A stretch of 64,000 bases of DNA, from assembly GCA_022496185.1 (NCBI GenBank), contig WTXG01000080.1, positions 92,071 through 156,070 of the forward strand. Reading direction: 5' to 3'. This document shows positions 1 through 63,575 of the stretch, piece by piece. The position numbers and the translations under genes were made by a program. The notes beneath the pieces were generated by a model that worked only from the letters and a program-made list of their open reading frames with translations, was not told where the DNA came from and did no database searches. Source of the DNA: Multifurca ochricompacta (Eukaryota > Basidiomycota > Agaricomycetes > Russulales > Russulaceae). Each line of letters opens with the position of its first letter. Position 1 is the first letter of the stretch.

Positions 1-2895
1 ATTCCCCAATGATTGCATTCAAGGGAGACTCACAAGACATCATGCTGACTTTGTAGTGAACGGGGGCGTCCGACCACAAGAAGACGCGCAACTGCTTGTT
101 GATGGGACCTACGCGCCACCAGTGGATGAGTGGGTTGAAGATAAGCTCGTTGCATCCTTAAATATCAAAAGGTCAGTCAGCGTTAATCAACTCTCTAATT
201 AAAAGTGTGGGAAACCTACCGTAAGAGTACTTCTGCCACCGGTTGAGTTCATCGTCGCAAGTCAAAGAGACACCCTCCTTGAAGCCACCTTCGGAATAGG
301 TCGACCACCGAATGATGTACCCCTTGAGCTGCACGCAAACATCATCAACGAGTCGATACTTCTCACTACCAGAAAGCACGAACCTGAAGACGCAGAGCCA
401 TGTCAAAGTCCTCAGAGACATTCGTCTCTGACCAAATCTTCTTCTTGTTCTCATCGCCGGGGTCCTCGAACGCGGCATCCTGAAGCGCAGACCAGCGGAG
501 GAAGGCATTGTGTCCAACGAAAGGCGCGACTTCTCCGTTTGCGCATGCCATGGAGATACACTTGTTAATACGACGGGTGAAGTGCGCGATGCCGTTCTCG
601 AAGTAGTGATGAGCAACCTGCATGACATCTGTGACGACGTTTGAGTACCCCTCTCTAGGGACACCAAAAAGAAAAGAAAAAAAAAAGGTAGGAAATCCTC
701 ACCTGACTCGTGTTGGATGATGGCAACCTCGGGACACTCAGCAAGCTCGCGGGCAGCATCGCGGAAACAGTCCTGTAACGCCACGTCAGCACATCAAGTT
801 CTACCGCGGCGGAGAAGGCGCATGCAAGCGAAACCTTACCTCGGGTACGATTGTGTCAGAGTCTACGATAAGAATCACCTCACCCATACGAAGAGCCTTT
901 GCGTTATGCGCCCAGGGCTTAAAGCGCTTTCCGCTTTCCTCATAGATTTCCTCGACCGCAATGCGAAGCGCCTGGTCTTCGATACCCTCACCACCGTCAT
1001 CGGAAGCCGAAGAGTCCGTAACGGAGGCCTTCTCGGCACGCTCGAGCTCGAGCCGATGTATGATTTCCTCCATCTTAAGACTGAGTGCAAGTCCGTAATT
1101 CATGTTGCTCGCCTTCTTGAAACGCCCACGACGTTTGAAGCCACCTTCAGAATCGTCATGCTTGGGTCGTGCCACCCAACCAATGCCGTTATCGGCGTAG
1201 AACCTTATGCGCTCCTCACGATCGTATTCAGAGATGAGCTGCAAGCCATCATCATGAACAAAAATGGACGAGGTGCCACCCTGACGCGCATAAGTCTGCA
1301 TAGCCTTCTTAAGCGACAGAACAGACGGAGTACTAAATTGTTGGTGATGTTGTCAGCAATCAAAAACGATCGAACGAACGAACGAACGAGACGGCATAGG
1401 TATGGTGATTATAATTTAAATGAAACTTACATAGTCTGTTCAAGACTCTCTTTGTATACGGGAAGCTCAATGGTTATGTGGGGTAAGTGAGCATCGACCT
1501 CTTTGTTTGCTGCGGGTTTAACGGCCGAGTAGTATTTGGAATTCTCATGGTACTGAGCAACAGGACCGAGTCTATCGAATAGATGGCGCGTGAGTGATTT
1601 AAACCCCAAAAAATGATACCGACCGACTTACACGTAAGAGATGTTCGTAATCACTTGAAGAGAGAAGAACTACAAGAGAAAAAAATGAATGGACAGGGAA
1701 AGATAACATTATAGAGAGCAGCCCAGCTTACGAGGGAAACGCAGAAAAGGAAAGGAGCTGTCGCAAGAAGTGCAAATCGAACGTAGTCGTGTGTCAACCG
1801 AAACTCTTGGAGTAAGATGCTGGCACCACTTCCAATGAAGACTTGATACCGTCCGTCCCGTCAATCAAGAGTCGCCAACAAAGCAAAAAAGATCACACGT
1901 ACAAGTTGATAGCGCCATGCCGAGGCCACCATACACCGGAGCAAAGTACCGAGTCGGCCGTGAGCTCGCTCCACCTTTTTCGAGGTCACGTGGAGATGGA
2001 GCCTGTGTCGCCTTGGACCCAATGCGCCATCCCCACAGGGAACCACCCGAAACCGGTTTCGGTTTTGAATTAGGGTCAGATTCAGATTCAGGTGAAGTGG
2101 ATGGAGCAGCGGATTCTACATCCTTCTCGTTCAGTTGCACATCTGAAGCTGAATTGACAGCAGACGTGACGGCGGGAGTTGCCGCGATACTTGGTCCAGG
2201 AGTAATGCTCGTAAGTGAATGTCGGCGAGACCAAACAAGTTTATGAGTTGTCTTCAAAGTCGCGACACTGTGGGATAATACTGTCCAAGTTATCTGACCA
2301 CACCACCAACACGCGTTCGTCACGCTTTGTTTTTTTTAGGGGGTGAATGGGTTATGATGTCGTTAGTCAGGGTAGACGTACCGTGGGAAATGGGGGAATT
2401 GACTTACGATGAATGCGCCACACTGCTCCTTGTCGGCACGCGGTAAATCGGGCATGCTGTCAAGGATTTGGATGCGTGTGTCATCATCAACATAAATGGC
2501 AGTGGCATCATCGTCCCTGGAATTAAAAAAAAAAGTTAGCATGGAAGTGGAAGCTTGATTGATCAAGGCACGTGAGAGCATACATACACAGTGCTAAGAG
2601 CGACGTGAACCGCAGCGCTGCGAACCTTGACAGCGACGACAGGGTTCAAGACGCGAATAGCAGCCTCAAAGGGCTCTAGGAAGCGGTTCTCATAAGGGAA
2701 CACGCGGTATTGCCCGGTCTGGATACGAAGGCAGACGCCAGCATGTATGTTCTCAGCAGATGGCTTGAACCATGCGTCGCCTTGAGTCTGAAAAGTACAA
2801 TTAGATCAAGGATGAGTCGGATCATGGAAGGAAGGTATGACGCCAACCTGTCTGAAGATATGGTGCAATAAAGCATCATATGCGTCGTAATCCAT
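1..2895 (-). CDS. GT2 family polysaccharide synthase-like glycosyltransferase (3' end outside window)
   Basis: Membrane-bound processive glycosyltransferase of family GT2 (chitin/cellulose/hyaluronan synthase superfamily); the sugar donor cannot be told from sequence. Translation starts at 2895 with MDYDAYDALLHHIF. Exons I could phase are 2895-2848, 2787-2588, 2516-2408, 2293-1903 and 1841-1732, all with GT-AG introns and compatible phases; further exons follow to the window start. A Ser/Pro-rich linker lies near 2210-1990. Hydrophobic segments lie around 1841-1632. The catalytic part begins with HITIELPVYKESLE (about 1480) and continues with FVHDDG, WVARPKH, RFKKASNMNYGL, the DxD motif VDSDT (about 860), SEDFDMAL (about 400) and NRWQKYSYG (about 230), matching the D, D, D, (Q/R)xxRW plan of GT2 enzymes. 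The window ends before the last membrane segments. No break is visible. A chitin synthase proper would show QRRRW, which I do not see. Confidence 0.85.
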
Positions 2896-5800
2896 AGCTT
2901 GATCCTCGAGAAGATGAACAAATACGAGGAGGAAAGCAGGGCGAAGGGTCAAGGGGGGCAGACCGGTAAGGGACAGAGCAAAGAGAGCATCTTAAGAGCT
3001 GCTGAGATATCATATATTATTTTTTATTATTTTTATTATCCCCTGTGCGTGTGTGTGTGATTACCTTCCTCTCACCACCGGTAGAATGAAATCATCCGAA
3101 ATAGGCGGCGGATCATTTAGCAAAGGAACTTGGCACAAGGTGCGGTCCTGGACCAGTCTCGAATGAGGGCGTTTATCGCCGTATGCAATAAAGCGCGGTG
3201 TATCGGAGAAAGCGCGGATAAAGCATCAACATCGGCCCTCTGTCAAAGGGAGGAATCCCCCGGAACCCAGAAGCTAGGTGAAGATGACGTTCCAGTCAAA
3301 AGCGAACTCCTGTCATCATCTTCACCATCATCACCATCATCATGAGAAGTAAGGGGGAGAACGTCAGTCGGCAAATGCGTTTGTGACACGAATAAATGAT
3401 TAATGAATGTAAAAATGCATAATACCTTTCTTATCTCTTTTCTTTTTCCTTCTTTTCTTTAGACGCCTGAGACAACGTTATGAATCTCCATCGAACAAGA
3501 GATCAATTAGAAGCACAAAACACGTTGAAGATGTTGCGATATCCAAAAAAAAAAAGAAAGAGGACCGGTAATGGTTCTTTTTTGCTTGTCAAAGTTAGGT
3601 CGGCCGCCGAGTCGCAATCCCAGACCCGCCATGTCCTCGTTCCAAGTCCTCATGGAGAGCTGTGAGCTGAGAATACCAATGAGATCGTGGAGCTAAAGCG
3701 CGAGCCGGGTGATGCATTTTGATAACAGAGCGCTCAGTATTGTCCTCATTCGCAGCCGTAACACACGCTCAGGGCGTAAAGCCGTGAAGGCGAGACATGG
3801 AAGCGGGATCCACCACCGAACACGCCCAACCCCCAGGAACACTCAAGTTCAGGAGTACAGGAGGGAGGGAGGAGCCTAAGAATCAAAATCAATCGAGGAA
3901 TGTAATTACTCGATTGGGTTATGCGGCACCCTGGGAGTGGGAAGTATACCGAACGGAGAAAAGGCGCACCTTCAAGGGTAATTCTCGCTTGGCTGACGAC
4001 AGCGTGGAATTATTTTGATAGGTGCGGCTGAAGAGTGTACATACAATAAGGTACTGCCGACCCGTCACCGGACTGTTGGACTACTATGTGACGTGGACAA
4101 TCATTTTTACCAACCTGAAAGAAAAAGAGATATAATTTTTGGGTGGTTGGTGGCAAAAGGTGGCGTTTGACGTTCAAGAGTGGCAAATTGGTGGCTGGGA
4201 TGGGCTGGGCTGGCTGGCTGGCTTAGTGTCAGTTTAAGGCTCCGCGAAGAGATCTCAGATTTACTTTTCAGGGTTGTTCGTCAATCTCGACTCGACACCA
4301 CACCACTAAGCACCGCGGCGTGGCGCGGCACGTGTTTTGAATAGTCAACACGCGAAGAAGAATAAATTATAACACCCAGTCAAACAATAAGTAAAATTCC
4401 GTATCCGTATCGCAAATCTCTTCAAAACATGTTTCGGACAATCCAAAACGACCAGACTTGAATACAAATCCCCTACAGTTTAGCGCAAACTTTCTTATCC
4501 CTTTTTTTAAAAAATTATTTTTTTGGAGTTGAGTGGTGATACGCTTCACATTTTGATTGACGTACGTGTTGACAGTCTTAGTTTCCACTAAATTGCCGAA
4601 CCACGACTATTTTTCGGAACAGCTTAAGGACCTGCAAAAGCGTTCAACCGCGACGCAACATCCGTGTCCGTCCAAATTAGTTAACAGCGTCTTTTCAAAT
4701 GATGACGGGACTACAGAGCTTTTTTGACTTGAATTGAATCATCATGATTAATTATCGTTACAAAGTGACGATAAAAGAGCCTGTATACCATCCGGAGAGT
4801 TTTTTGTCGCGGTTACTTTTAAAGGTGAAGCAATCTTTTTTATGACGGGGCACGGGCAAAGTGTTTGAGGCGCAACGGCCAACGAAAGAGATATCTGATC
4901 AAGCGGCATGAGATGTTGCGTTTCGGTTATTTATTTATTTATTTATTTATCTTTTCTTTTGCTTTTTTTGAGAGTCAGTCTCAAATTTCCCGCACGAAAG
5001 TGCAGACTAGGTCGGGGGGTGATGTCCCTTATGCATACTTTAGTACAGGGGGGAATGATTGGGATTTGAGCGTTTAGTTTAGATATACTTCTATTCGATT
5101 TAACTGGTTTAGCTTAGTTTGAGTTCCTGCTCCTGCTCGGAGTCTGTCTATGCATGATTGCCCCCCCCTGGTCTATGTTCTTGTTGTTGATCCTGTCCGT
5201 TGGAGGTACAATCAATTAAGGGCTCAACCAGAGTGGCAGGACCTAGGACCCCCAGGGTCGTCAATTGAGTTGAGTTATTGCGCTTGAATTTGCGAGCGGG
5301 CCGAAACCATTCGGCGGTGATGTGACGGCATTGTTGGTACATATATGGGCTTACCAAAGTGAAAAATCGAGCACACCCCGAGTCAAACGAGAATTATCCT
5401 TTGCATTAAAATGTGAATGTGAATGTGGTGGATATGCAGAAGATTTATCAATGTAGTGGAAACACTGTGGTGTTTATGGGGAAGGCGCCTTGCCCTTGAA
5501 GCGGAAACCTCATGCTTTTGCTTTTCCACCCTCTTTTTTTTCCAGATAGAAACGGAAAAGATCATAACAAGGAGTATGGAGCTTTCATATTCGAGTAGGG
5601 ATTCGAACGGAATGCCGGAAAGACCATTGGCCGGTGATAGATTTGCGAGTTTTTTTAGAAAGCAGGCCACGGAGGCGGGACTTACTGCCTAGAAAGTGAC
5701 AAGAGTGCCGAGCATCTGGAGGGCATGGGTGTTGATTGGCGATAAGGTGAACGAAGATGTAACACCGGCTCGGAATACCGAGTCCATCCTGGGGACAAAC

Positions 5801-7254
5801 GACATGGGTGAGAGAGAAAAGAAGAGAGACCGAGAGAGAGAGATATGGAGATGGAGGAGGGTGGAAGGACTGCCTCTCGAGTTCTCGATGCGCCATGTAT
5901 CTGGCAGAGGCCGATCAACGGCAGCAGAATGTCATGTCATGCCCCCTACAAAAGGGACTTAGTCGGGAGTCGGGTCGGGTGGAACTGTCAGTGCTACCAC
6001 CGGCCGGGCTCAATCCCCCCTGATACACATTCATTCCAATCGGGGGGAAGAAGAAGAAGAAGAGGAAAAAATAAAAAATAAAAAATGAAAATAATAATAA
6101 AAAAGTGTTCTGCCTGAATCATACCGCTTTCGCTGATGACTCACTGTCACAAATGGGATGACATCGATTTTGGCCATGGCCACCGATTTGGAGCGTGTTA
6201 TTGTGGCGGCGGGGACGTTTGTTGTTTGCAGAGAGAGAGCGTGTGCGTATGTTCGTTGGGGCTGTCACTGTCACTTGTCAGGTCAGGTCAAAGGTTTGAT
6301 GATTATTTTATTATTATTACTATTACTATTATTTATCATTTGCTTGTCTCCGCCGCCACGCGTGCGCGTCATGCACATGATTTCATTGATCATTCATTTC
6401 CCACGCTTTGTCACTTTGGTTCAATGCGCGAGACGTTCAAATGCCCCAAATCTAATATATATTTTTTCAATTTCACGTCGAGTCGTCATAACACACACAT
6501 TAAAAGATAATGTCATCTCACGGCAAAGGCGCGCTTGAACGAAGATCGCTAAGAAGATGTGTGCTAGACCTATCAGAGGAGAAAGAGATGGGGGGTGGGA
6601 GATGGGGGTAGTGAGGGTGGGTGTGCGCACCCCTCCTAGAAGGATCGGTCATTTCCTGCGATAAAAAGAAACCTCAAACATCCTTACAACAACAACAAGT
6701 TTCGAGGGGATTCATACATCCATTCTTGGGTGCCGTGCCATTTCGGCAAGCTCTCGGAGGAATCTCAGTGGCACAGGTTACATTTTCATTCTTCCCACCT
6801 TGTAAAAGAAAAGCCCTGGCAGTACAGAACTTCCGTGCTGACTTGACTTGACTTGACTTGAGTGCATGGTACCTTTGACCGGGTCTAGATGATACCCATC
6901 TCCTTGGAGTTCGGACGGTTATATTCGTGCGGTGATTGAGCTTCCCAAATGTTAACACACCCCCTTTGCGCCGTGTCCAAGGAACATAGCATATTGGTGG
7001 CCGTAATATTATTTATTTTTTGCCATGATTCAATCGGGTCTTGCTCGAAGGATCCGCCTTTCTCAAGAGCTAGACGCTGTCCATCAACTGATGGCAAATT
7101 ATACAAATTATTTCTTTCACTAGCCTTCACTCTTTTTTAACTTGATACAAGCCTTGGCGGCGCCTTAAAGACCCCTTGCCTTGCACGAGGTAGAAAAGTT
7201 TAGGAGGAGCCCTCTCCCTAACTGGTGTCCCTTGCACGCATCTGCTCACTAGCC
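2896..7254. other. Intergenic region, no supported gene
   Basis: I see no conserved protein, tRNA or transposon here. The region has A/T-rich runs, a (TTTA)n microsatellite near 4927-4951 and purine/pyrimidine tracts. A possible acceptor (T-run then CAG near 5545) precedes a short open frame to 5692, but it resembles nothing I know. It should hold the promoters of the divergent GT2 (minus) and GH16 (plus) genes; I could not place their elements. Confidence 0.5.
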
Positions 7255-20881: not shown

Positions 20882-23842
20882 ATGAGCGCGATCGAGACAT
20901 CTCTCGCAGCTTTGAAGGAGGCAAGCTCTTTGGCGGGAAAAATCCCTTACATCTCCCCAGTTGCAGGTCTTCTACTCCAAGTTCTCACCATGCGGGATGT
21001 GAGCATCTAACCACACTCTAGGTTATGCTTCATGTTGAAAACTTTGTCTGTTTTGACAGGAAGTAAAGCAGCACAAAGAAGAATGGGATATTGTAATGCG
21101 CAAACTTGGCAGAGTTGCCAGCCTAGTCGTAAATGTTGGAGAGTCCTGCCAGAAATATAACCTTGAGGAAAAGGATCTCCCTCCCGGTCTTCGCTCAATC
21201 CTTCAGTCCATTCAGTCGTATGTCCTATATTCATGTGCTCCATCACTAACTGATCATACATAAGTGAACTACGTGGGATTGAAAGCGCACTTAGGCGAAA
21301 CACGGAGGTAGGACGTGTTGAAAAGGTTCTTCTGCGCAAGGATTTGCTACGGAAAGTCAAGCAATATGATGGGGAGCTATCGAATATACTTCAGACTTTC
21401 CAGGTTGGTCCTAGTTTCATCCTCCCTGTCACTCACCCAACTCATTGGCACCAGGCCGAGTTGGTTTTGGATGTGCGTTTTGCACTGGTTGAAGCGCGCC
21501 AGGTATGCGTGCTGCTGATAAAAGGTTGTAGTGATATCATCTTACAAAATTGACAGGTCCTCCATGCGGGCCCATCTGGAGTCCTGATATCATCACGTAG
21601 GCATATCTTGTTGATACTCATGTTGCGCTGCCGACTGACAATCCCCAAGCTCCAAACCCCAGGAGCCATCTGCACCCGCAATTTTCTTTGGCCGTGATGC
21701 CGAGCTTGCTGAGATCCTTCACATGATTTTCACTGGCGTCGGATCTCGTCCTGCCCGCATTGCAATCCTCGGGCATGGTGGTTATGGCAAGACAACCCTT
21801 GCAAGTGCAGTCTCACTCACCCTCAAGTTCAAGAACACTTCGGGGATGCTCGATACTTTGTTGCTTGCGAATCAGTCTCCTCATCAGGTGCTCTCCTAGT
21901 TGAACTCGCAAAGACACTTGGTGGTGTCTTGGATGGAGGCTCAAATGCTTCCTGGTCTCATATTCATGCTAAATTATGTTCAAAGGATAACATCATCTGT
22001 CTTGACAATTTTGAGTCACCTTGGGACCAGGCTGGTGACATAAGACATTCTGTCGAGAAGCTACTTTCCAGGATTGCAGGGATCCATTGTGTCACTCTTC
22101 TTATCACTATGCGAGGTACGATTCGGCCGGCCCAGACTCAGTGGACAAAGCCTACATTGGCTCCATTGAAGACTCTTAGCCAGGATGCTGCTAAAGAAAT
22201 ATGGAAGGAAATAGGAGATGATATGATGATGCTGCAGAGGAACTCATCAAGGCTGTGGATTATGTTCCTCTTGCTGTTACCCTGTTAGCACATCTTTCCC
22301 AGGCAACATCACCTTCAATATTGTTAAAAGAGTGGCATTTAAAGCAGACCAAATTTATCCAAATGGGTCAGGGCCATAAGCTATCAAATCTTGAATACTC
22401 CATCCAACTATCCATTGAAAGTGGCAGCATGAAAGCCAATCCATCTGCCAAGGATCTACTTGGGATTCTCAGCATGCTACCAGATGGGATACATACAAAG
22501 CAGTTGGAAATATTTCAGGAGATTCTTGTTGATATGGATCTTCTATCCTGCTTGCGTATCCTGCAGCAGTGCAGTCTTATAAATGTGATTGGAGAGAAAT
22601 ATCAAACTCATCCAATCACTCGTCACTTTTGTAATCATCAAAATTTCATATCAGAAAACCATATAAAATCACTCCAGGAATTCTACATCAACCTGGCATC
22701 TTCAGAATCATATAGAGCACAGGCCCAGAAGCATGCTGAGATGGCACTTGAAGTGAATAACACAAAGGCCATGCTATTCCATCTTTTGAAGTCAAACTAT
22801 ATGGATCATTCAAGACTAGTTGACTCCATAATTACATTCACCCTTTTCCATGTCAGCATAGGAGATCATTCAGACAGATTGATAAGCCAAACTGTTGAAT
22901 ATTTGCAAAAAAGGCAGGGTACCACATCATTATTGATAAAGTGTCTTCAGAGGTGGGGAAAACTGTGTTTTTATGCCAGTGACACTGCACAAGCAAAACA
23001 TAAGATGCAAGAAGCAGAAATGTTGTGTTCATCAAGTTCAGATAAGGATGGTGCCCTGCATGCAGCAGTATTAACAGATCTTAGTGAGCTTTATCTATGG
23101 CATGGAGCACTAGATGAGGCAGAAGCATCATATCAAAAAGCCTTAAAACTTCACCAGATTGCAAATGATGCATGGGGTCAGGGAAATGATCACAAAGGAC
23201 TTGGGGACATATATTTAGAAAAGAGGAAGCCAGCTGAGGCTGAAGCCTCATATAAGAAGGCATTGGAATTTCACAAGATTGCCAACAGTGCCTTGAGGCA
23301 AGGGAATGATTACAAAGGGCTTGGAGAGACATATCTACAGCTGGAGAAGCCAGATGAGCTGAATCCTCATTTAAAATGGCCTTAGAATGCCACAGGATTG
23401 CCAACAGTGCACTGGGTCAGGGCAATGATCACAGAGACTTGGAGAGACATATGTACATTTGAGGAAGCTAGATGAGGCTGAAATCTCATATAAAAAGGCC
23501 TTGGAGTTTCACAAAATTGCCAATGGTGTCCTGGGCCAGGGAAATGACAACAATGGACTTGGAGGTGTATATCTACAGTTGAGGAAACTAGATGAGGCTG
23601 AAGTCTCATACCAGCAGGCCTTGGAATGTTATAAGGTTGCCAATATGGTCCTGGGTCAAGGAAATGCTTTACATGGTCTGGGTAGAGTATACATGGAGAG
23701 GTCACAACTTAAAGATGCAAAGCACATGTTTGAGCAAGCACTTACCAAGCATAAGCAAGCAAAAGCCACAATATGGCAAGGGTTGGATAAGGAATACTTG
23801 GATAGAGTCTTGTCTAAGATGGATCATGCTTCCAAGAAGTGA
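20882..23842 (+). pseudogene. NLR protein: N-terminal helical domain, NB-ARC and TPR repeats, with frameshifts
   Basis: Fungal NLR-type STAND NTPase; relatives act as signal-transducing innate sensors. The ATG at 20882 begins a helical N-terminal region (MSAIETSLAALKEASSL) in five small exons (20882-20998, 21060-21217, 21265-21403, 21455-21502, 21557-21596). The NB-ARC part starts with IFFGRDAEL (about 21680), has P-loop GHGGYGKTT (about 21775), Walker B IICLDNFES (about 21995) and VPLAVTLLAHL (about 22262). TPR repeats of 40 aa follow from about 23090 to a stop at 23842. The frame breaks at about 21803 (one base missing after GCAGTC), about 22220, about 23353 (GAGGCTG reads GAGCTG) and about 23425. 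Each looks like a one-base loss and the peptide on both sides remains conserved. It is either a young pseudogene or an active gene with base-call deletions. The join into the NB-ARC exon (about 21650) is also not in phase. Confidence 0.8.
23090..23790 (+). repeat. 120-bp tandem TPR-coding repeats
   Basis: At least five to six 120-bp units encode variants of DEAEASYKKALEFHKIAN followed by GQGNDHKGLG. Near-identical DNA units make this region prone to unequal exchange. Two units (about 23340-23460) carry single-base losses. Confidence 0.85.
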
Positions 23843-24172: not shown

Positions 24173-24481
24173 TGTTGACACAGGACGTGTCTGGAGATGC
24201 TTCAGGCATCTAAGGTTCACTTCAGCTGTAGATAAGATTAGATTAGGTTCCGGAGTTTTGGACTTTTTATGATATCTTTATTACATTTCTTTCTCTACTT
24301 ACTCAGCTGATTAGTGATGTACTTAGTAATGTGCAGTAAGCATGTGATTCTCTGTTAGCCAATGGCTTTACTCCCTTGTTACTTATTGTCCGGCACTTGT
24401 GGACTTATTCCCAGTGCACACAGACCATTTCCCCTGGCCCCCATGGGTATATAAGGGTGTCTGTTTCATCTCTTACACTTC

Positions 24482-24635
24482 AGAGTTCTTCTAACCTCTG
24501 AAGTGTAAGTTCCTTCTACTTTACTCTCTACTACCTCTAGACTAACATTGTATATAGACTTGTCTTTGTTCTAGGTCAGTAGTATAGTATGATATAGAGT
24601 TCTTCTAACCTCTGAAGTACTTGTCTTTGTTCTAG
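24482..24635 (+). promoter_or_regulatory. LTR A1 leader: intron plus intron-free copy
   Basis: 24596-24635 (40 nt) is identical to 24482-24504 joined to 24558-24574. The 53-nt segment missing from the copy starts GTAAGT, ends TATATAG and has a CTAAC branch site. After exon 2 comes GTCAGT, and after the copy comes TTCTAG|CC, so a second GT-AG intron (24575-24635) could remove the copy. Confidence 0.85.
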
Positions 24636-24676
24636 CCTAACATGCTACTAACCACAGTCAGTATAACCAGCAGCAT

Positions 24677-44810: not shown

Positions 44811-46324
44811 GTGGCTTCCAGCCGCAGTCAGACCCTCTTTAAAGAAGAACTCATCGAACGCAGAGACGAGAATAATCTTTCACAGCAAGTACTTGGCTCT
44901 GCCGCCTGGAAAGATTTTGAATCCGAGTTTGGATACTACGTCTATCACGACGGAAGATACCAGCCGGTAGAATACGACGACGAGAAAAGAGTTTGGTATC
45001 GTATCCGATATTCGGATAGTCGAAACTCTTGGGTCACTACAGGACCCGCTCCGCCTGAATTTGGATTAGGGCCGTGGAGAGAGAATCCCCCAGCCATTGT
45101 TACGGACTCCGAACCAGAAGAGTACGTAGAAGAAAACAGCGAAGAAGCACTGGTATTAGCGTCGACTATAGCCCCAGTTGCACCCGAAGTTGTCACAATC
45201 AGAGCCCCTGCTTTGACAACCCCCCAGATTTCCGTACAGTCTACAGACACCATCACCCCGTTTTACCAAAACATGTCCACGATCGCCGCTCAGCTCCCAG
45301 ACCCAGCTCCTCCTCCTCCACCACCACCGGCCATGCTGCCACCGAACATTCCCCCGCCATCAGGACGTCTGTCAGGTGTACTGCCACAGACGTTTACAGG
45401 GGATCGATCACAAAGCAAAAAGTTCATGTTGGAGTTTACCACGTTCAAAAACTTCAACCATGATGTTCCCCAAATCATTAATCCTTTCCAACGTGCCAAC
45501 CTCTTCTTATCACTGATCCGAGGGAGGCTGTAGATGATTGGACCATGGAGCAGCTGGAATGGCTGAACGAGCAAATCGAAAGTGGGCGTCGCACCACTAG
45601 TGAAGGGCTTTGGGAAACCATTGCCCAGCGGTTTAAAGATGCATACACGGATGGGCAGGCCAAGCAGAAGGCGGCCCGGGAATTGAAGGCTCTGAAGATG
45701 GAGAAAGGAGAGCTAGATGCCTATGTGGCAAAGTTCAGAAGTTTGGCCAACAGGGCCGGTTATGACACAGATGAAGAGGCAACGTTGGACCTCTTTTCCC
45801 AGGGGTTGCCTAACCCCCTGGTAAAGAACATTATCCAATTCCACCATCCCAATGACTGGGATACATGGGTCGACGCTGCCCGACGACAGCAGCAGGATTA
45901 CCTCGACTTTCAGACCCGCTTCGGAGTCGACACCAGGAAGGGAAAGACCCGCGACCAATGGAAGGCCGCCTTTGGGGTTAAACCCACACACACCGGTCAG
46001 AGGGATCTGAACGCAATGGATACCTCTGCGGACAGAACCAGGGCACGCGTCGCCCTTACAGAGGACGAGAGGCAGACGTTGATGAAGGAAGGACGGTGCT
46101 TTCGCTGCAAAGCACAAGGGCACATGTCAAGGGAATGCCCGAAGAAGGGAGTACGTGCGGCAGAAGCAACTGTCACGCCTGTCCGCAACAACCCACCAAC
46201 CGTCGAGAAGAAAACGCCAACAAAAGAAGAAAAAGCACAGGAGATATGGGCCAACATGATGAAGGAGAGTGAAGAAGTGCGAGCCATTCTAGTAGAGAAG
46301 GCTTTCGCAAAAAAGGATTTTTGA
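44811..46324 (+). CDS. Element D gag (GUG start; one frameshift)
   Basis: Capsid and nucleocapsid protein. Starts at GTG 44811 (MASSRSQTLFKEEL if read as Met); no ATG lies between the LTR stop and this site, and -3 A / +4 G are kept in all copies. Pro-rich stretch about 45300-45350; capsid-like region 45380-45960; CCHC knuckle CFRCKAQGHMSRECP at about 46100. At about 45525 a G run reads GGG where relatives need one more base, shifting frame. The stop TGA (46322-46324) follows GCA AAA AAG GAT TTT. Confidence 0.88.
46308..46324 (+). promoter_or_regulatory. Probable -1 ribosomal frameshift site between gag and pol
   Basis: In the gag frame the end reads gcA AAA AAG GAT TTT TGA. Both A_AAA_AAG and G_GAT_TTT are in the X_XXY_YYZ register and pol lies in the -1 frame. 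G_GAT_TTT is retained in elements C and D' although A_AAA_AAG is not. Confidence 0.5.
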
Positions 46325-49300
46325 TTGGCTCAAACCCATCGGCCTGGGCGCGAGCACTCCATGTAACCTCTGTGTATACTAGTCGCTTCAAGTCTTTGAA
46401 AATACCAGTACATTTCGAAACCACACAGAGAACGGCCGACCGTGACATCCTGATTGACTCAGGGGCCACAGATAACTTCATTAGTCCACGGATGGCAAGG
46501 ACCATGGGACTGGGGATGCTGGCACTCCCCCAGGAGAAGAACATCTGGAATATTGACGGAACTGCTAATCGAGCAGGAAAAATCACACACTACACTGACC
46601 TCAATGTCCAAGTGGGGGAAAGAACAAAGGTCATCCGCTTTCTAGTCACCAATCTAGGCGAAGAAGATTTAGTTCTAGGATATCCCTGGCTCGCCGCATT
46701 TGAACCAAGAATCAACTGGGGAGACGCAACCATGGACAAAGACTTTTACCCCGTTCTCATCACGTCGCTAGGGTACGATTATGCCATTCGACATTCGGCG
46801 GTCTGCAGGGCAGACAAAGAGGAAGAAGATCCGGGTTATTGCTTCACTACCAAGGCATCAGAACTCGCGCAGAAGGCAGTAGAGGGGCATACCGAAAGGA
46901 CTTTTGAGGAGGTCGTGCCAGAAGAGTATCATCGACACTGGAAGGTATTCTCTGAGGAGGAATCTCAACGTTTTCCACCTGCACGACCCTGGGACCATGC
47001 CATTGACTTCACACCCGACACCCCATCCGCAATTGATTGTAAAATCTACCCATTGTCACAAGCAGAACAAACTGCGCTCACGACATTCCTTGAGGAACAT
47101 CTGGCAAAAGGGTATATTCGTCCATCGAAATCACCATACGCGTCGCCGTTCTTCTTTATCAAAAAGAAAGATGGCAAGCTTTGACCTGTTCAGGATTATC
47201 GACGAATCAATGCCCATACGGTGAAGAACGCCTACCCCTTGCCGCTTATTTCGGAACTCATTGATACTATGCGGGACAAATCCCTATTCTCTAAAATGGA
47301 TGTCCGCTGGGGCTACAACAATATCCGGATCAAGGAAGGAGACCAATGCAAAGCAGCTTTTAAGACCAATCAGGGGCTCTTTGAACCGAATGTTATGTTC
47401 TTTGGCCTCACCAACTCGCCCGCCACTTTCCAATCAATGATGAATCATATCTTCCGCGATCTCATTCTCACGGGCGAAGTAGTGGTGTACATGGACGACA
47501 TATTAGTGGCCACTACCAACGACCTAGCCCATCATCGAAAACGAGTACACCAGGTGCTAGACATCCTGCACGAACACGATCTGTACCTCAAACCAGCCAA
47601 ATGCTCGTTTGAACAATCGAGTGTGGAATACCTAGGGGTTATCCTGGAAGGAGGGCATGTGCGGATGGACCCAGTAAAAGTACAAGGAATCCGGGAGTGG
47701 CCTGTACCCATGTGCATCAAGGATGTACGGTCCTTCATTGGATTCTGCAACTTTTATTGGCGCTTTGTCCGTGGATTCTCAGGCATCGCCCAACCATTGA
47801 ACGGATTATTGAAAAAGGACGTACCCTGGCATTGGGCAGATGAACAACAACAAGCCTTTGAGCAGATCCGAGACATTGTCGGTTCAGAACCAGTCCTCTT
47901 ACAGCCAGACCTAGAGAAACCCTTTGAGCTTGAAGTTGACGCTTCCCATTTCGCCAACGGTGCCGTACTCAACCAGCGGGATGCAACAGGACTACTTCAC
48001 CCAGTTGCCTTCTACTCAGAAACATTCTCGCCAGCAGAACAAAATTACGATATTTGGGACAGAGAGCTACTAGCTATTGTAAAGGCACTACAACATTGGC
48101 GACCATACCTAGCGGGAACCCCCCATAAAACCGTCATCCATACTGATCACTCCAACCTGCTCTACTGGAAAGAACCCCATAAAATCAGCCGACGGGTCGC
48201 TCGCGAAGTTCTAGAGCTCGAAGAATATAACTTTGTGTTGAAACACATCGCGGGAAGTCGTAATGCACGAGCAGATGCCCTATCTCGGCGACCAGATTTA
48301 AACCATGGGGGGGAGGACAACAATGATATCACAGTACTCCCTGAAGAAGTCTTCACTAGAGTAGCCGTCGTCAGCCTCCACGACATGGACTTATGGGCCC
48401 AGGTATCACAGAACATGAACCAGCAGTTATGCCAATCATGGGCAGCGGCGCATAATCTGAAGAAGATTGATGGCCTGTGGTGGAAGGACGGGGATCGACT
48501 CGTTGTCACCGGTGGCGACAACATTAAGAGGGGGGTGATCCATTTTCACCATGACCTACCCTCCGCAGGACACCCAGGCATTGCTAATACCTACACACTC
48601 GCCAAACGAGACTACTGGTGGCCAAACATGAAAAAGGACGTGGAGGAATATGTGAGGGGATGTGCAGATTGCCAAGCCAACAAAGTGAATACGCACCCAC
48701 ACCCACCAGCACTATCCCCCATTACACCAACGGCGTCACAACCATTCCAGACCATCGCCATGGATTTCATCGTCAAACTCCCCACTTCCAGAGGCTTCGA
48801 CTCCATCTTGACCATCACTGATCACGACTGTTCAAAAGCAGCACTGTTCATACCATGCAATGAGTCCATCACAGCAGAAGGAGTAGCCAAACTCTACCTG
48901 GATCACGTCTACAGACATTATGGCCTCCCGGAAAAAATCATTTCAGACCGCGACCCACGCTTCACGTCCACATTTGCCAGGGCCCTCTGTAAAACGCTGA
49001 ATATAACCCAAAACATCTCGATGGCCTATCATCCACAGACAGATGGACAATCAGAAAGGACAAATCAGTGGCTCGAACAATATCTTCGGTTCTGGTGCAA
49101 TGGACGACAGGATGACTGGGCTGACTGGCTAGCGACGGCAGAATTCGCACACAACTCTTGGCCCAATGGCACCACAAAAAACTCTCCATTCTCACTTATC
49201 ATGGGATGGACGCCTCGAGCCACGTGGACTGGAAAGCCAACGAACGTTCCCTCAGCCACACAGCATATCAGCCAATGGGAGGAGATCAGGAGATCAGCCA

Positions 49301-49803
49301 ATGAGAACCTGTTGAAGGCGCAAAGAACCCTAGCGGAGAAGCCCTCGAAGTTCACACCTTATCAGACCAATGACTTGGTGTGGCTGGAAGGAAAGAATGT
49401 TCACACGTCACATCCGACAGCCAAGTTAGCGCCCCGACGTCACGGACCCTTCAAGATAACAAGGAAGCTGTCCGACGTGTCATATGAACTCGAACTTCCC
49501 CCCACATGGCGAATCCACCCAGTCTTCCATGCCAGACTGTTGACACCGTACAAGGAGACATCCCTGCATGGGGAAAACTTCCCTAGACCTCCCCCTGAAT
49601 TAATCGATGGAGAAGCGGAATGGGAAGTGGAGCGGATTCTAGACTCCTCACGTAAAGGCCGAGGGCACAAGCTACATTACCTCGTTAAGTGGAAAGGATT
49701 CCCAGACTCAGACAGTTCGTGGGAACCAGCCGGGGATATCTTCGCTCCGTCCTTATCTCAGAATTCCACGCCCGACACCCAGAAGCGCCCAAGAACAGTT
49801 AAA
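46321..49803 (+). CDS. Element D pol (one TGA, one late frameshift)
   Basis: Polyprotein in the -1 frame after gag. Protease LIDSGATDNFISP (about 46455); RT with [16 protein letters not shown] (about 47485); RNase H ELEVDASHFANGAV and HTDHSNLLYW; integrase HHCC (CADCQANKVNTHP, about 48660) and DDE core (AMDFIVKLP, about 48760; ISDRDPRFTSTF, about 48940; YHPQTDGQSERTN, about 49030); chromodomain YLVKWKGFPDSDSSWEPAG (about 49680). A TGA at 47182-47184 replaces the Arg CGA of relatives. Near 49746 one base is missing, so the frame runs past the usual end (VPKDD stop in D') to 49938. Confidence 0.92.
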
Positions 49804-49877
49804 AGGGCGACGACCTCCAAAGCAAATTCCCCAGTACATGCTCCCACAGCAACGTCCTACCACCATCGAATCTATTA

Positions 49878-51072
49878 TGTCTTTCATCGCCACCAACGCC
49901 GCCGTCGACGCATTCACTGCCACCACAGTAGTTGTTGAGAATTTCCCCTCCGCTCACCCTTCCACACGCCCTTCCTCACCCATCGACTATGAGGCTGCTG
50001 AGGCCCGAGTCAAGAACCAATCCCCCAACCCCAACGACGATTTCGAACATTGTGAAGAGCCGCATCCAAACGACCTGATAGGCATGGAGTCCGATGACGA
50101 AGTGCCGGAGTTCCCTTTCTTCGCCAACAACCCGAACTCCTCCATGTACTACCCACTTGAGATCACTATGGGTGATGGACCACTGCTATCGCCAAGTACA
50201 TTTTCTACACCAATGGAGGGATGGATGTGGCTGGATGCATGAAAAAGGACGGTCCAGTTTATGGGGCTCCGTCTATCTGGAAGAAAGGTATACCGGTCGT
50301 TTACATCACACCATGACCGACGAACAGCTGGGACATCTGGCGGCTGAAGATTCGCGGGCCTTTGCCATCGACGAAGTACTGAGTGACATGCGACTTCCGC
50401 GTCTCAAAGCTGAGGTAATGAGACTGCGGAAGAACCTGACCTTGCGCAACACACTTAACCAACAGTACAAAGAACATGCGAAGATGATGGCCCAGCTGAT
50501 GAACGGGATGTTCAAATAGAGCAGGAGTTGGTGGAGATCCGGAAAAGGTTGGAGAAAGGAGATGCTTACCAGACGATTGCCGAGAGGTACGCTGATACAT
50601 ATGCCCGACCTCTGCCTCCACGATCATTGGGGGCTGCTCCGGTGCTGTTGCCGAACCGGTTCGAGATGCCACAACTGCATGAAAACCTGCGTGGGGAGAC
50701 GTGCTGGCGCTGTGACAGTAAGTACCACATCAGCTGGAACTGTCCTCTCAACCGCAAGTGGTGCCGGCATTGTCGAAGCAACCTGCACTGGAGTAGGTTT
50801 TGTATTTTCCGCCGCGTAGGGGTCGCTCCAACAATTGCCAATCCGTCTGGATGGTGCGGCAAATGCCTGCGTCACAACTCCGGACACCGTGAACTGGATT
50901 GTCCGATTCATGATCTATGTCGCTTGTGTGGCCAGCGCGGGCCCTACGGCTTTCTCCGCACTCACCAATGCCCCCAGGACTCGGATAAAGAGAATACACC
51001 ATGGATGAGCGTAATGTAGCCGATGATTATTTGGAATTGGTGCAAGATGATGACGGTACGAGTCGTTTCTAG
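49878..51072 (+). CDS. Element D ORF3: zinc-knuckle protein after integrase (frameshifted)
   Basis: ATG 49878 gives MSFIATNAAVDAF; stop at 51070-51072. Four Cys/His clusters from CWRCDSKYHISWNC (about 50700) to CGQRGPYGFLRTHQC (about 50930). Compared with D', bases are missing near 50193 (one), 50265 (two) and 50510 (one), mostly in short homopolymers. Same gene as at 38863-41185. Confidence 0.8.
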
Positions 51073-55200: not shown

Positions 55201-55364
55201 TTGTTTATATTTGTTTTGGTTGATGCAATATTCAACAAACAGTGCAAAAGTGCAAAACATTGACTCAGTTTTGTGAGGCACTGTACTTGCTGTGAAAGGT
55301 TATTCTCGTCTCTGCGTTTGATAAGTTCTTCCCGGAAGAGGGTCTGACTGCGGCTGGAAGCCAC
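52220..55364 (-). CDS. Element D' gag, split by the Tc1 foldback
   Basis: GTG start at 55364 (context ACAGTGG). The first ~27 codons (to 55286) continue at 53659 after the TA-flanked insertion. The downstream half is open from 53386 to 52226 with capsid-like region DWTMEQLEWLNEQ and knuckle CFCCRELGHMSRDCP (about 52450). Upstream, 53590-53390 has at least one frame change. Confidence 0.85.
54024..54443 (+). pseudogene. Tc1/mariner transposase N-terminal half, left arm
   Basis: From ATG/MHPTSSAQKENILSL with helix-turn-helix-like ASRLSLSQSRVSRTLRN, then HSFKAVTKKKRPLLS. It stops at the arm junction after EWTVEDW; the DDE catalytic domain is absent. Confidence 0.82.
54444..54921 (-). pseudogene. 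Tc1/mariner transposase N-terminal half, right arm
   Basis: Same protein as the left arm but runs further, into WSAETKINRFGSD, where active Tc1 enzymes have the first catalytic Asp (SDE); here it is Ala. It ends at the junction with the left arm. Confidence 0.82.
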
Positions 55365-56973: not shown

Positions 56974-58387
56974 TGTAACGGGTGAAGCTCCGTGTACACT
57001 TAGTAACAAAGAAGGGCAAAGGTGTGGTGACCTAAGTCGTTGGGCGTACCGCGGAGGCAAACGTCACGTGTTAAGTAATGACCAGGAACTGTGTCACCCA
57101 CTGTGGTTTATGCAACCACAATGACGGCGTTCTGAAACTGGAAGAAACTGCAGCCCCAAGAGGACAAGATCCAAAGGATCGAGTCACACAGGGAGGCAGT
57201 ATATCATTAGCACTATGTATTGAACTTGTGTAGACAGTTACTCACCTGCAGCCCCAAGAGGACAAGATGTTGACACGGGATGTGTCTGGAGATGCTTCAG
57301 GCATCTGAGGATCGCTTTAGCTGTAGATAAGATTAGATTAGGTTCCGGAGTTTCGGACTTTTTACGATATCTTTATTACATTCTTTTCTCACCTTACTCA
57401 GCTGATTAGTGAAGCCCTTAGTAATGTGCAGTAAGCACATGATATCTCTTTGGCCAATGGCCTTTGTCCCTCTCTGTTTATTGTCCGGCACTTGTGGACT
57501 TATTCCCAGTGCGCACAGACCATTTCCCCTGGCCCCTATGGGTATATAAGGGTGTCTGTTTCGTCTCTTCCACTTCAGAGTTCTTCTAACCTCTGAAGTG
57601 TAAGTTCCCTTTACTATACTCTTCTTTACCTTTGACTAACCATCTTCTGTAGACTACTTGTCTTTTAGGTCAGTAGTATAGTTGTATAGAGTTCTTCTAA
57701 CCTCTGAAGTACTACTTGTCTTTTAGCCTCACCGCTACTAACCACAGTCAGTATAACCAGCAGCATGATTGTTTGACACAAGATGGGGGCTACAGGCTGT
57801 TACAGAGGGTCTTATATACATTTCTCAGTGTAACGAGGTAAGCAGTAGGTGTAAGCAAGAATCAGCAAGTATCAGTCAGCTGTATTGCTGACTGAGCCTT
57901 ATCTTTTGTGATTCGTAAGCTGCTTTACTCTGCTGACTGATCATGCTCCACAATGTGATGTCATTGTGGAGTAGATAACTGATATGTAGTCTAGCCCTTA
58001 GGTCTGGAACACGTCTATCTACTGATACATATGATTCTGTGCTAAAATTGGCCATGGCCCAACCTGGGCCCTTATCTAGAGCTCCACTTACCTAGAACCT
58101 TCTAGGCTGGACTCCTCTTATCTTGATAACAGCTCCACTTGGTCTAGAACCGTCTAGACTGTGGAGCCTTGCCTATTGTGGTAAACACAATAGAGAATCG
58201 ACTTGTTATTGTTGAGTGGCTCTTGTGCTGACTAAGCAGCATGTGACTATTACATGTGACTCGGTCACATGATCCATGTCACGACTACATTCCCATGATC
58301 ATGTGTTGAGACTGCTGGGTAATCTTCCCACAGTCATGTGATCCAAAGGGGAGAAAAATAAAGGAAAAATAAGGTAGAGCTGTGACA
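56974..58387 (-). mobile_element. Solo LTR B2 nested in LTR C, split by LTR A2
   Basis: TSD CATAC at 56969-56973 and 58388-58392. Net length about 898 bp; reverse complement of B1. The duplicated leader exon and GTGAGT are kept. Confidence 0.92.
57268..57778 (+). mobile_element. Solo LTR A2 nested in LTR B2
   Basis: 511 bp, TSD CAAGA at 57263-57267 and 57779-57783. TATATAAG 57543, predicted start A57577. Exon 1 57577-57599, intron 57600-57652 (GTAAGT...CTGTAG, branch GACTAAC), exon 2 57653-57668. Intron-free copy 57688-57726. Confidence 0.93.
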
Positions 58388-58830: not shown

Positions 58831-61513
58831 TACTGCCATTGCATTACAGAAAGCCCCAGGCTTGATCTCTGCCACTGCAGATGGATGGACAGTCGACACA
58901 ACCAAAGCGGGTTTTCTTGGGGTGACTGCGCACTGGATCGAGGTGGATGGTGAAAAATGGAACATGCACTCTGAAGTTATTGGGTTCTGAACGATATCAG
59001 GTGGACATAGTGGAGAGAACTTGGGATGGTACTTTGTGGGTGTATGCATGTTGAACACAGAAGATGTTCGGTGATGCTTCAGGCATCAGGTGATTAGATT
59101 AGCTACTTTGTAGATTAGATTAGATACCGGAGTTTCGGACTTTTTACATTATCATTATTACTTTCTTTCTCACATTCCGCAGTAGCTGACTGATACACCA
59201 TGTAACATGTGATTTCTGTATTAGCCAATGGCTTTTCTCCCTCATGTTTATTGTTTGGACTTTGTCCAGCACTTGTGGACTTATTCCCAGTGCACAGACC
59301 ATCCCTTGGATAGTATATAAGGGTGTCTATTTTGTCTTCTACACTTCAGAGTTTCTTCTACCTCTGAAGTGTAAGTCATCCTCTCTACTATCTTCACTAC
59401 CTTAGACTAACTCTGTATATAGAACTTGTCTCTCTAGGTGTGTAGTATAGTATAATAGAGTTTCTTCTACCTCTGAAGTAACTTGTCTCTCTAGCCTTAC
59501 ACGCTAACACCCACAGTCAGTATGCTGCGCACATGCCTGTTTGACAATGCAATCATATTGGGATAATTAATGGCAAACGATCAAAGGTGAGCTGATATCT
59601 GAGTCAATTCAACACCTTATCTGATCATCTAACTAGCTCCTCACTATCACCCTTGACAACGCGTCAAACAATACAAGCAAGTGTGAAACTATCGAAGCCA
59701 TCCACAAGCAACGCAAGCTGCCCATCTGGTCTGCAGATGAGAATCAGTTGCCATAAGTACCTGCTTCCTCAATGTACTGTTATCATTAATGCTGCAAATC
59801 ATCAGTTGCTTATCTCATGTCATCAATCTCACAAACATTGACATCATGGACCATATCACTAGGATCGCAGCCATAGAAATGGCCACTGCAATTTGGGAAT
59901 ATGACCCATCCCTGTCCAATAACCGTGTGCTTAATGGATCACTGGACGTTATCGCATCTATTCAAACCCTGGCAATCAAGGTTTGTCCTTCATGCCATCT
60001 GTCTCCTGGTCAACACACTTCTAACATATCACATCAGATTCAGTCATCGGGGCAATGCATTGAAGCCTTTGACAAGCTTCAGATCGAATGCAGCATTCCA
60101 AATCCCCTCAACATTCCACTTCACAGCAATGTCAGATGGGGCACTGCTTATCATATGCTGAGTAGGTCTCACAAACTTCACCAGGTACAGTGCATCATAT
60201 TGCCATTACCCTTTCTCAACTAACTTACCCTCTTATATAGCCTATCAATCTTTTTGTTGCAAGTGCCGACCATCACTATGGTCCTATCACCACCATTCGA
60301 TGTGATGGCTGGGTTGTAAAACACATCCCGTGGTCTGCCTTCATGTTTACTGAACAAGACTGGGAACACGTTATGAAAGCAGTGGAAATTATTGTGGTAC
60401 ATAATTGTAACTGATCATTCTCATTGTTACTGATCTCCTCACTTGACAGGATTCTAATAGAATACAGCAATACTTCTCTGCTGAAAAGCATCCGACCCTG
60501 TGGCAAGCACTTCCTGCAATTGAAGAACTTCAGACAGCTTGGGAAGCAAAACGCGACAACCCTCAGTTCAAAAAATATCAAACTGCAATCAATGATGGAC
60601 TGGAAAAGCTAAACAAGTATTACTCATGGTTTGACAGGAAACCCGCATACATTTTGGCACTTGGTGAGTAGGATATGTTCAAATTATCTCTTAAGCTAAT
60701 CTTCTCTATCTAGTATTGCATCCATACTTCAAACTTGCATACATCAAGCTCACGTGGGGTGGTGCTGAAGAACAAGAAGCAGAACATAGGGCTGGAAATC
60801 AGCACACGAAGAATTGGCAAGATGAGGCACATCAGATACTTGAGAATACAGTATGTTATATACTTTCACACTGCTCTGCTCTACTGACATGTTTTGATAT
60901 GATAGATGGAGCAATACTGGAAGAGTCAAAGAAAAGCGTCAACTCACAAGCCAGCAGCAAATATTGAACTCCTAGAAAGCAATGACTCACTCCTGTCAGA
61001 ATATGACTGCCATCACCTAGCATTGATAGCTAGTCAGGACTTGAACCATGAATGGCAGGCAGAGTTAGAGCAATATCTCAAGGACTTGCCCTCTGATGTA
61101 ACCAAGGACACCGACATTGTCAAATGGTGGCAGGTATGTTATTCTATGATGTCCTATAAATCAGACATAAATACTGTTTACAGAACAATGGGCACACTTA
61201 CCCCACTCTTTGACAGATTGCTATTGATTACCTTGCTTGTCAGGCATCATCTGTCCCATGTGAGCGCCTTTTCTCTGCTGGTGGTGAAATTGCCACAAAG
61301 TGCCATGCTCAATTAGGTGCCACATGTTTTGAAGAGCTTCAAGTCATGAAATTTACCTGGAGGAATAATATTGGAGACCTTGCTGCTTGGAACTCAGCTC
61401 AGGTGGAAGAAGTATTTGACCACAAAATGAAGGAATTCGAAGATCTGTTGATTTTAGATAGGGAGCATCAGGAGTGGGAAACAGCTGCAGATGAGTTTGT
61501 AACATGTTTCTGA
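58831..61513 (+). pseudogene. hAT-superfamily transposase, 5'-truncated and decayed, split by LTR A3
   Basis: DDE transposase of the hAT superfamily. Recognisable blocks: ISATADGWTVDTTKAGFLG (about 58870), LDNASNN (about 59655), VINLTNIDIMDHITRIAA (about 59820), NVRWGTAYHML (about 60130), the RPAYILAL-like block (about 60640), and the C-terminal dimerisation region AIDYLACQASSVPCERLFSA (about 61222) with EIATK. Introns include 61134-61183 (GTATGT...TTACAG). Frame breaks occur at 58988 and in several exons, and a TGA in the YPTL block suggests loss. The BED finger/N-terminus is missing; the left edge abuts LTR C. Stop at 61511-61513. Confidence 0.8.
59049..59546 (+). mobile_element. Solo LTR A3 in the hAT pseudogene
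   Basis: 498 bp, TSD ATGCA at 59044-59048 and 59547-59551. TATATAAG 59314, predicted start A59348. Exon 1 59348-59370, intron 59371-59422 (GTAAGT...TATATAG, branch GACTAAC), exon 2 59423-59437. Intron-free copy 59457-59494. Confidence 0.92.
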
Positions 61514-63268: not shown

Positions 63269-63575
63269 TGTTAGAATACAGCCACGGCATGCAGCCACAT
63301 AGATACTGGAGATGGCGGCCCGAGATCGATCATATCAAGGCCGTCCTACACAATGCACGAGGTGTTGTGCAAATTTCTTTACTTTAATATAGGACTATTC
63401 GCATAGTTAGTGTCCTCAGTCTTTCTGTTCCAAAGACTGAGGTCAGTATCATTCTCTTTGTAGCTACATTGTCTTTTACTAATTCTTTCTGTAGCTACTC
63501 GCTTTTCTAGGTATTACCTAGCAATATAGTCTTTCTGTTCCAAAGACTGAGCTACTCGCTTTTCTAGCTCTTACA
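63269..63575 (+). mobile_element. 5' LTR E of a Ty1/copia element (processed-leader type)
   Basis: 307 bp, TGTTAGAATAC...CTCTTACA. TATA-like TTAATATA at 63384, predicted start A63418. Exon 1 63418-63441, intron 63442-63494 (GTCAGT...CTGTAG, branch TACTAAT), exon 2 63495-63510. The spliced form recurs at 63528-63567, exactly 40 nt, 8 bp before the LTR end. Confidence 0.88.

Follow-up and report, generated by a model that had tools for sequence, protein, structure and literature searches.

In the genome of Multifurca ochricompacta, the LTR of a group of Ty1/copia elements appears to hold the R region twice, once split by an intron (exon 1, intron 1, exon 2) and, after an AT-rich spacer, once intact, and it is highly probable that splicing makes the 5' R of the RNA, that the intact copy 2 serves as a landing site rewritten in each cycle, and that both introns of the LTR are kept. 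In the proposed cycle, exon 1 would supply the first base of the transcript. Intron 1 and a second intron would be excised by the spliceosome from the transcript of the 5' LTR, so that the RNA begins with exon 1-exon 2-U5, that is, R-U5; in the 3' LTR the same sequence would stay unspliced, and the 3' end of the RNA would fall within the intact R or beyond it. After synthesis on the spliced 5' end, minus strong-stop DNA would anneal to the intact R and be extended across the spacer, the split R from exon 2 back to exon 1 with intron 1 included, and U3, rewriting copy 2 from spliced copy 1 and keeping both introns. Intron 1 of the 3' LTR is probably shielded by pairing of its donor with bases 5' of the RNA start, which the 5' transcript would lack. 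The RNA start, the splicing, the poly(A) site and the function of this hairpin are predicted from DNA. Reverse transcription normally erases introns. If the proposed cycle is true, a reverse-transcribed LTR can stably retain spliceosomal introns, two introns within the copied segment apparently surviving many transpositions, with splicing turned into a source of matching RNA ends; copy 2 would then be a snapshot of spliced copy 1, a natural record taken in each cycle. Such elements likely form a class of LTR retrotransposon with a spliceosome-made terminal redundancy, a copy 2 rewritten per cycle, and a hairpin straddling the transcription start that distinguishes the two RNA ends.

The window, by which is meant the whole stretch of 64,000 nucleotides that was analysed, is part of contig C585. 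The LTR of subfamily A1 within it has the following features.

24173..24675, + strand: Ty1/copia LTR, subfamily A1, starting TGTTGACA, truncated and lacking about 13 nt at its 3' end
24448..24455, + strand: TATA box, 34 nt 5' of exon 1 (spacing 33-34 nt in nine A/B units)
24473..24508, + strand: inverted repeat TTACACTTCAGAG..CTCTGAAGTGTAA, left arm upstream of the predicted RNA start, right arm over the predicted 5' splice site
24482..24504, + strand: exon 1, the 5' part of the split R copy 1, from sequence comparison
24505..24557, + strand: predicted intron 1, 53 nt, GTAAGT...CTAAC...TATAG
24558..24574, + strand: exon 2, the 3' part of the split R copy 1, from sequence comparison
24575..24635, + strand: proposed intron 2, 61 nt, GTCAGT...TTCTAG, enclosing the spacer and the whole of copy 2, from its GT/AG ends and from stable propagation
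24575..24595, + strand: spacer, AT-rich, possible poly(A) signal region
24596..24635, + strand: R copy 2, equal to exon 1 plus exon 2, putative landing site for minus strong-stop DNA
24636..24675, + strand: U5, truncated, from comparison with complete genomic LTRs

In complete genomic LTRs the 3' continuation is TGATTGTTTGACA, which is absent from the window copy, ending at 24675; the AT content of the spacer is 70.6% across 87 LTR copies. The identity of 24596-24635 with 24482-24504 joined to 24558-24574, reported in the first-pass annotation, is exact over 40 nt, and its further readings were borne out: the omitted segment has the features of a canonical 53-nt intron (GTAAGT...TATAG with CTAAC, which we take to be the branch motif of these introns), the base upstream of the repeat is C at copy 1 and T at copy 2, and the promoter spacing is as described, TATATAAG beginning 34 nt 5' of the repeat. 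A detector for the pattern exon 1, GT..AG, exon 2, spacer, exon 1-exon 2, with exact copies of at least 10 + 9 nt, gave four matches in the 64-kb window with both strands scanned (at 24482, 57577, 59348 and 63418, all on the + strand), whereas 20 first-order Markov sequences, scanned on a single strand each, gave no match. A chance repeat was ruled out by this control together with the permutation tests on genomic copies described below. The other three matches lie in these LTRs.

57268..57778, + strand: solo LTR A2, TSD CAAGA intact, LTR plus TSDs 57263-57783; exon 1 57577-57599, intron 1 57600-57652, exon 2 57653-57668, spacer 57669-57687, copy 2 57688-57726
59049..59546, + strand: solo LTR A3, TSD ATGCA intact, LTR plus TSDs 59044-59551; exon 1 59348-59370, intron 1 59371-59422, exon 2 59423-59437, spacer 59438-59456, copy 2 59457-59494
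63269..63575, + strand: group B LTR of an element extending beyond the window end; exon 1 63418-63441, intron 1 63442-63494, exon 2 63495-63510, spacer 63511-63527, copy 2 63528-63567, U5 63568-63575

The window also contains a Ty3/gypsy chromodomain element (44811-49938) whose domains are RVT_1, H2C2 integrase and Chromo, in a region where the detector found no split-R pattern; a 1.6-kb near-perfect palindrome (53656-55289, 97% self-inverted) with ORFs on both arms that share the same start and presumably resemble a Tc1/mariner-type DNA-binding part; and an ORF with tandem TPR repeats (22255-23385).

The relation between the two copies of R was followed across the 53.8-Mb genome, using the three related window LTRs as queries and scoring about 40 best candidates in each search. 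Together with the window, 73 fetched stretches yielded 117 LTR hits, 87 of them full length; the 30 partial hits were left out, as were seven loci (L002-L008) overlapping refetched loci, and the set of 87 includes duplicated contigs (L014/L015; L074/L076/L079). Copy 2 equals exon 1 plus exon 2 letter for letter in 73 of the 87 full LTRs, which belong to three related subfamilies, and these exact matches span 23 haplotypes, many with indels, while intron and spacer vary. The genomic alignment that the first-pass annotation had named as a test of its reading came out in its favour, copy 2 following the exons of copy 1 and the intron and spacer not doing so. When copy 2 was reshuffled among copies within each subfamily (10,000 trials each), the 24 exact matches observed among 35 A1 copies compared with a shuffled mean of 4.6 and a maximum of 13, the 24 among 26 A3 copies with a mean of 5.9 and a maximum of 16, and the 25 among 26 A2 copies with a mean of 16.5 and a maximum of 22. 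For exon 2 alone, 29 of 35 A1 copies (permutation maximum 18) and 24 of 26 A3 copies (maximum 14) matched; A2, with 26/26 matched and a permutation maximum of 26, is too uniform for a test. The exons of the three window subfamilies differ in 7-14 of 40 columns. The base 5' of exon 1 is C in 87/87 LTRs, whereas T, C, A and G precede copy 2 in 67, 15, 3 and 2 of them; being free before copy 2 and fixed before exon 1, this base indicates that the tracking starts at one base.

Between copy 1 and copy 2 there are 15 substitutions (0.44%) and 5 gap columns (0.15%) in 3387 nt from 87 copies, and between the two LTRs of one insertion 41 substitutions (0.81%) and 14 gap columns (0.27%) in 5091 nt from 10 elements. 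As the copies of R diverge no more than the LTR pairs, the age of copy 2 does not exceed that of each insertion, and the low divergence is as expected if copy 2 were rewritten at every transposition. Nine of the 14 discordant LTRs among the 87 are explicable by CpG decay or one-base T-run changes, four having T in exon 1 against C in copy 2 at the CpG adjoining the donor and five a one-base change in a T run. A new last base of exon 2 is found in three others (both LTRs of L013, and L072), L025 has two changes in copy 2, and in L027 CC of exon 1 has become TT. L013 is one element (TSD AAGTG) in which both LTRs have the new exon 2 base and copy 2 still has the common one; the exon 2 change was thus present at insertion, when copy 2 had not taken it over, as would be expected if copy 2 lags one cycle behind copy 1.

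The splice sites of intron 1 were read with a motif-anchored parse allowing one substitution, in which the donor is GT in 79 and AT in 8 of the 87 LTRs, the acceptor is AG in 85, and GT and AG ends of the proposed intron 2 are found in all 87; as this parse uses motifs with limited mismatches, its splice-site counts lean toward the model. An unanchored parse by exact letter matches only gives GT..AG ends to intron 1 in 73, to intron 2 in 75 and to both in 66 of the 87. The AT donors stand beside C and fit CpG decay of GAAGCG. AT-AG introns had been considered for the copies with GAAGCATAAG and were dropped in favour of such decay, copy 2 retaining GAAGC and sister copies GAAGCG.

It is the stability of the arrangement that calls for a second intron. 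The sequence directly 3' of copy 1 is GTCAGT, GTGTGT, GTATTA or GTAAAG/GTAAAC, copy 2 ends in AG, and with both introns removed the sequence exon 1-exon 2-U5 is exactly copy 2-U5. If intron 1 were removed alone, each cycle would add a further spacer and copy 2, so that stable propagation needs the second intron; exon 1-exon 2 must directly precede U5 in the strong-stop DNA, and 24575-24635 would hence be absent from the 5' RNA. The model of the first-pass annotation stands as regards the rewriting of copy 2 in each cycle, for which the tracking speaks, but not as regards the removal of intron 1 alone, intron 2 having been missed. An exon 1-exon 2-GTCAGT-type junction, the DNA product expected of an unspliced intron 2, has no true match for the A1 and A2 patterns at up to 3 mismatches, the sole match in the genome search being in fact an ordinary intron 1 end. 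One LTR in L030 retains intron 1 and precisely lacks intron 2, for which a direct-repeat deletion may also be the origin. Read by eye, the intron 2 sequences of A3, of B and of some further A-type units show no clear CTAAC motif.

The same architecture recurs outside the A subfamilies. Groups A, B and C have nearly no mutual sequence similarity (best BLAST E about 0.06), yet their anatomy is identical. All 21 group B rows (20 fetched of 40 scored places, plus the window copy) have the split R; among these 21 no exon change was mirrored in copy 2, because the copies are too alike. In a survey of 20 stretches downstream of RVT_2, hand-picked among 150 listed matches for varied ORF lengths, the split R was found 3' of RVT_2 in 17, four of them group C (L111, L125, L126, L127); of the remainder, L110 is a C LTR lacking the block and L118 and L129 show no LTR of split-R type. 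TATA-like boxes, which lie 33-34 nt 5' of exon 1 in the nine A/B units, lie 34-35 nt 5' of it in five C units, and this spacing supports the first base of copy 2 as the RNA start. The A-type exon 1-donor pattern has 459 matches in this one genome at up to 2 mismatches, which marks the design as very successful; a reversed control pattern gave no match at that tolerance.

The two transcripts would differ at their donors because of a hairpin across the RNA start. In a pairing survey, bases 5' of this start pair with the end of exon 1 and the donor in groups A, B and C; of the 32 distinct units surveyed, 31 have 4-10 contiguous pairs and one has 2, and the pairing reaches the intron in 29/32. As the left arm lies upstream of the RNA start, the hairpin would be possible only in transcripts including those bases, that is, those of the 3' LTR, which alone could thus probably hide the intron 1 donor. 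When the upstream bases are included, the donor is computed to be less accessible in 9 of 13 units, the exceptions being A2_WIN, L111, L127m and L113; in those nine the accessibility falls below the mean of 30 shuffled upstreams and above their minimum. Changes in the left arm within group A have no compensation in the right arm, so that control of the intron 1 donor by the hairpin is a suggestion. Foamy viruses are reported to have their major splice donor within R, to fold differently around it depending on whether the RNA includes the 13 nt that precede the start, and to suppress polyadenylation at the 5' LTR through U1 snRNP, the donor presumably being blocked at the 3' LTR (PMC3694450). 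The arrangement described here suggests a way in which LTR elements may keep promoter activity and polyadenylation apart although their LTRs are identical.

Rare LTRs lack the block. At up to 2 mismatches, block-less A-type LTRs occur at 7 places against the 459 intron-bearing exon 1-donor sites at the same tolerance, and the eight that were fetched (one with 3 mismatches) read exon 1-exon 2-U5 without spacer or copy 2. In group C all 14 contiguous LTRs fetched are block-less, a share that is no frequency since they were found with a block-less query. Two group C elements lack the block in both LTRs: one on C595, with identical 295-nt LTRs (TSD GCCTT) that match the intron-bearing LTRs of C76 and C25 except for the missing stretch from exon 1 to spacer, and one on C257 (TSD GTCAC). 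With both LTRs altered, the losses took place in or before a replication cycle; these elements have transposed, so that the introns are not essential. On C514 only the 5' LTR (L086) is block-less and the 3' LTR (L022, TSD CACAG) bears the intron, a difference indicating that the loss hit one LTR only. A fully spliced leader landing on copy 1 would yield block-less LTRs, and slippage would do likewise; block-less LTRs were rejected as proof of splicing, since direct-repeat deletion between 22-23-nt repeats gives the identical product. A candidate for loss of intron 1 only, C232:5822, proved to be an ordinary intron-bearing LTR broken downstream. A block-less A-type LTR with common flanks at four places (L082-L085) seems to have spread with another repeat, L087 is a solo LTR of A type that lacks the block and is flanked by the target duplication GGGTA, and no partner LTRs of L088 and L089 were found at the sites examined.

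Several other accounts of the repeated R were weighed. The version in which only intron 1 is spliced, the spacer and copy 2 staying in the 5' leader and recombination later removing the extras, is quite unlikely. Intron 1 does have better splice and branch motifs than intron 2, and direct-repeat deletion is plausible, as block-less and partly deleted LTRs exist; against this stand the want of a true match to the junction that this version expects in the A1 and A2 types, and the GT..AG ends of intron 2 in both parses. A homogenisation at the DNA level, in which gene conversion would keep copy 2 like exon 1/exon 2 and splicing would be irrelevant, is slightly less probable again. In the L063 insertion (LTRs at 199-702 and 6203-6699), a TA inserted both in exon 2 and in copy 2 of one LTR is missing from the other, as such conversion would produce, but all differences between the two LTRs fall in a single tract that extends from intron 1 to U5, the roughly 355 nt preceding it being identical; we read the tract as ectopic conversion by another, concordant copy, though it could hint at DNA-level homogenisation. 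Conversion tracts of about 15-24 nt would moreover have to stop at the splice sites and at the TATA-defined start, and the divergence of the two copies does not exceed that expected from insertion age.

It is highly improbable that the two copies stem from an old duplication which, never rewritten, has stayed identical through selection for terminal redundancy: strand transfer requires matching ends, and mismatches would be selected against, but private indels and substitutions stand in both copies and one-sided intermediates are few, as the discordant minority shows. Hardest of all to credit is an ordinary LTR in which the unspliced R is the whole 154-nt block and the intron-like look is due to chance. 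Unspliced transcripts are compatible with the DNA evidence; the shared architecture of three groups nearly without sequence similarity and the empty Markov controls argue against this account, and unspliced cycles would allow the two copies to diverge. The reading preferred here is the one in which both introns are spliced from the 5' transcript and copy 2 is rewritten from the product.

As to the element itself, ORFs and Pfam domains in L012 (rve, gag_pre-integrs and Pol_BBD in ORF 2315-4051, RVT_2 in 4885-5250) have the copia-type order, with integrase before the RVT_2 reverse transcriptase. Of five ORFs scanned in two elements, three have copia-type Pol domains and two no family, and no retroviral gag/pol/env or spumavirus proteins were found among them; the viral contigs searched yielded no relatives. 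Ten of 13 LTR pairs are similar and have a 5-bp TSD (L064 taken with a 1-nt query offset), and the pairs of L014, L015 and L062 do not resemble LTRs of one element. Directly 3' of the 5' LTR stands GGTTATGGGCCCTG, a putative PBS that we liken to the copia type, which corresponds to an interior segment of the initiator tRNA, and a purine stretch lies 5' of the 3' LTR. The LTR termini are TG..CA in A and B, and group C ends in TTTA. On two contigs with the same flank (L019, L039) an inverse A1 LTR is inserted in an A2 LTR near position 446-450.

Among the matches listed, covered as titles and abstract starts with most subscription literature outside that scope, there was no published description of a splicing-made R, and the parts seen of two reports (PMC5542766, PMC4256276) describe none. 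The LTR1 lentiviral vector, as far as the consulted parts of its report go, likewise has a rearranged terminal region that alters strand transfer, but it is engineered, makes the first transfer unnecessary and does not rebuild R via splicing (PMC5542766). With canonical Ty1/copia the elements share the position of integrase before RVT_2, two LTRs, a 5-bp TSD, a putative PBS after the 5' LTR and a purine stretch. The canonical R is single and contiguous, as it is in the block-less LTRs of this genome, whereas here R stands twice per LTR, the first copy split by an intron, and the 5' R of the RNA would be assembled by splicing. DIRS elements resemble them in that an internal copy regenerates terminal sequence, but that copy is complementary, and DIRS elements use a tyrosine recombinase and are not known to rely on splicing. 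The genomic RNA of foamy viruses keeps its donor unspliced; these viruses are not known to remove an intron to make R or to have a duplicated R. What the foamy virus LTR may share with the LTR described here, from the parts of the report consulted, is a splice donor in R and a folding difference between 5' and 3' RNA of the kind proposed for these elements (PMC3694450).
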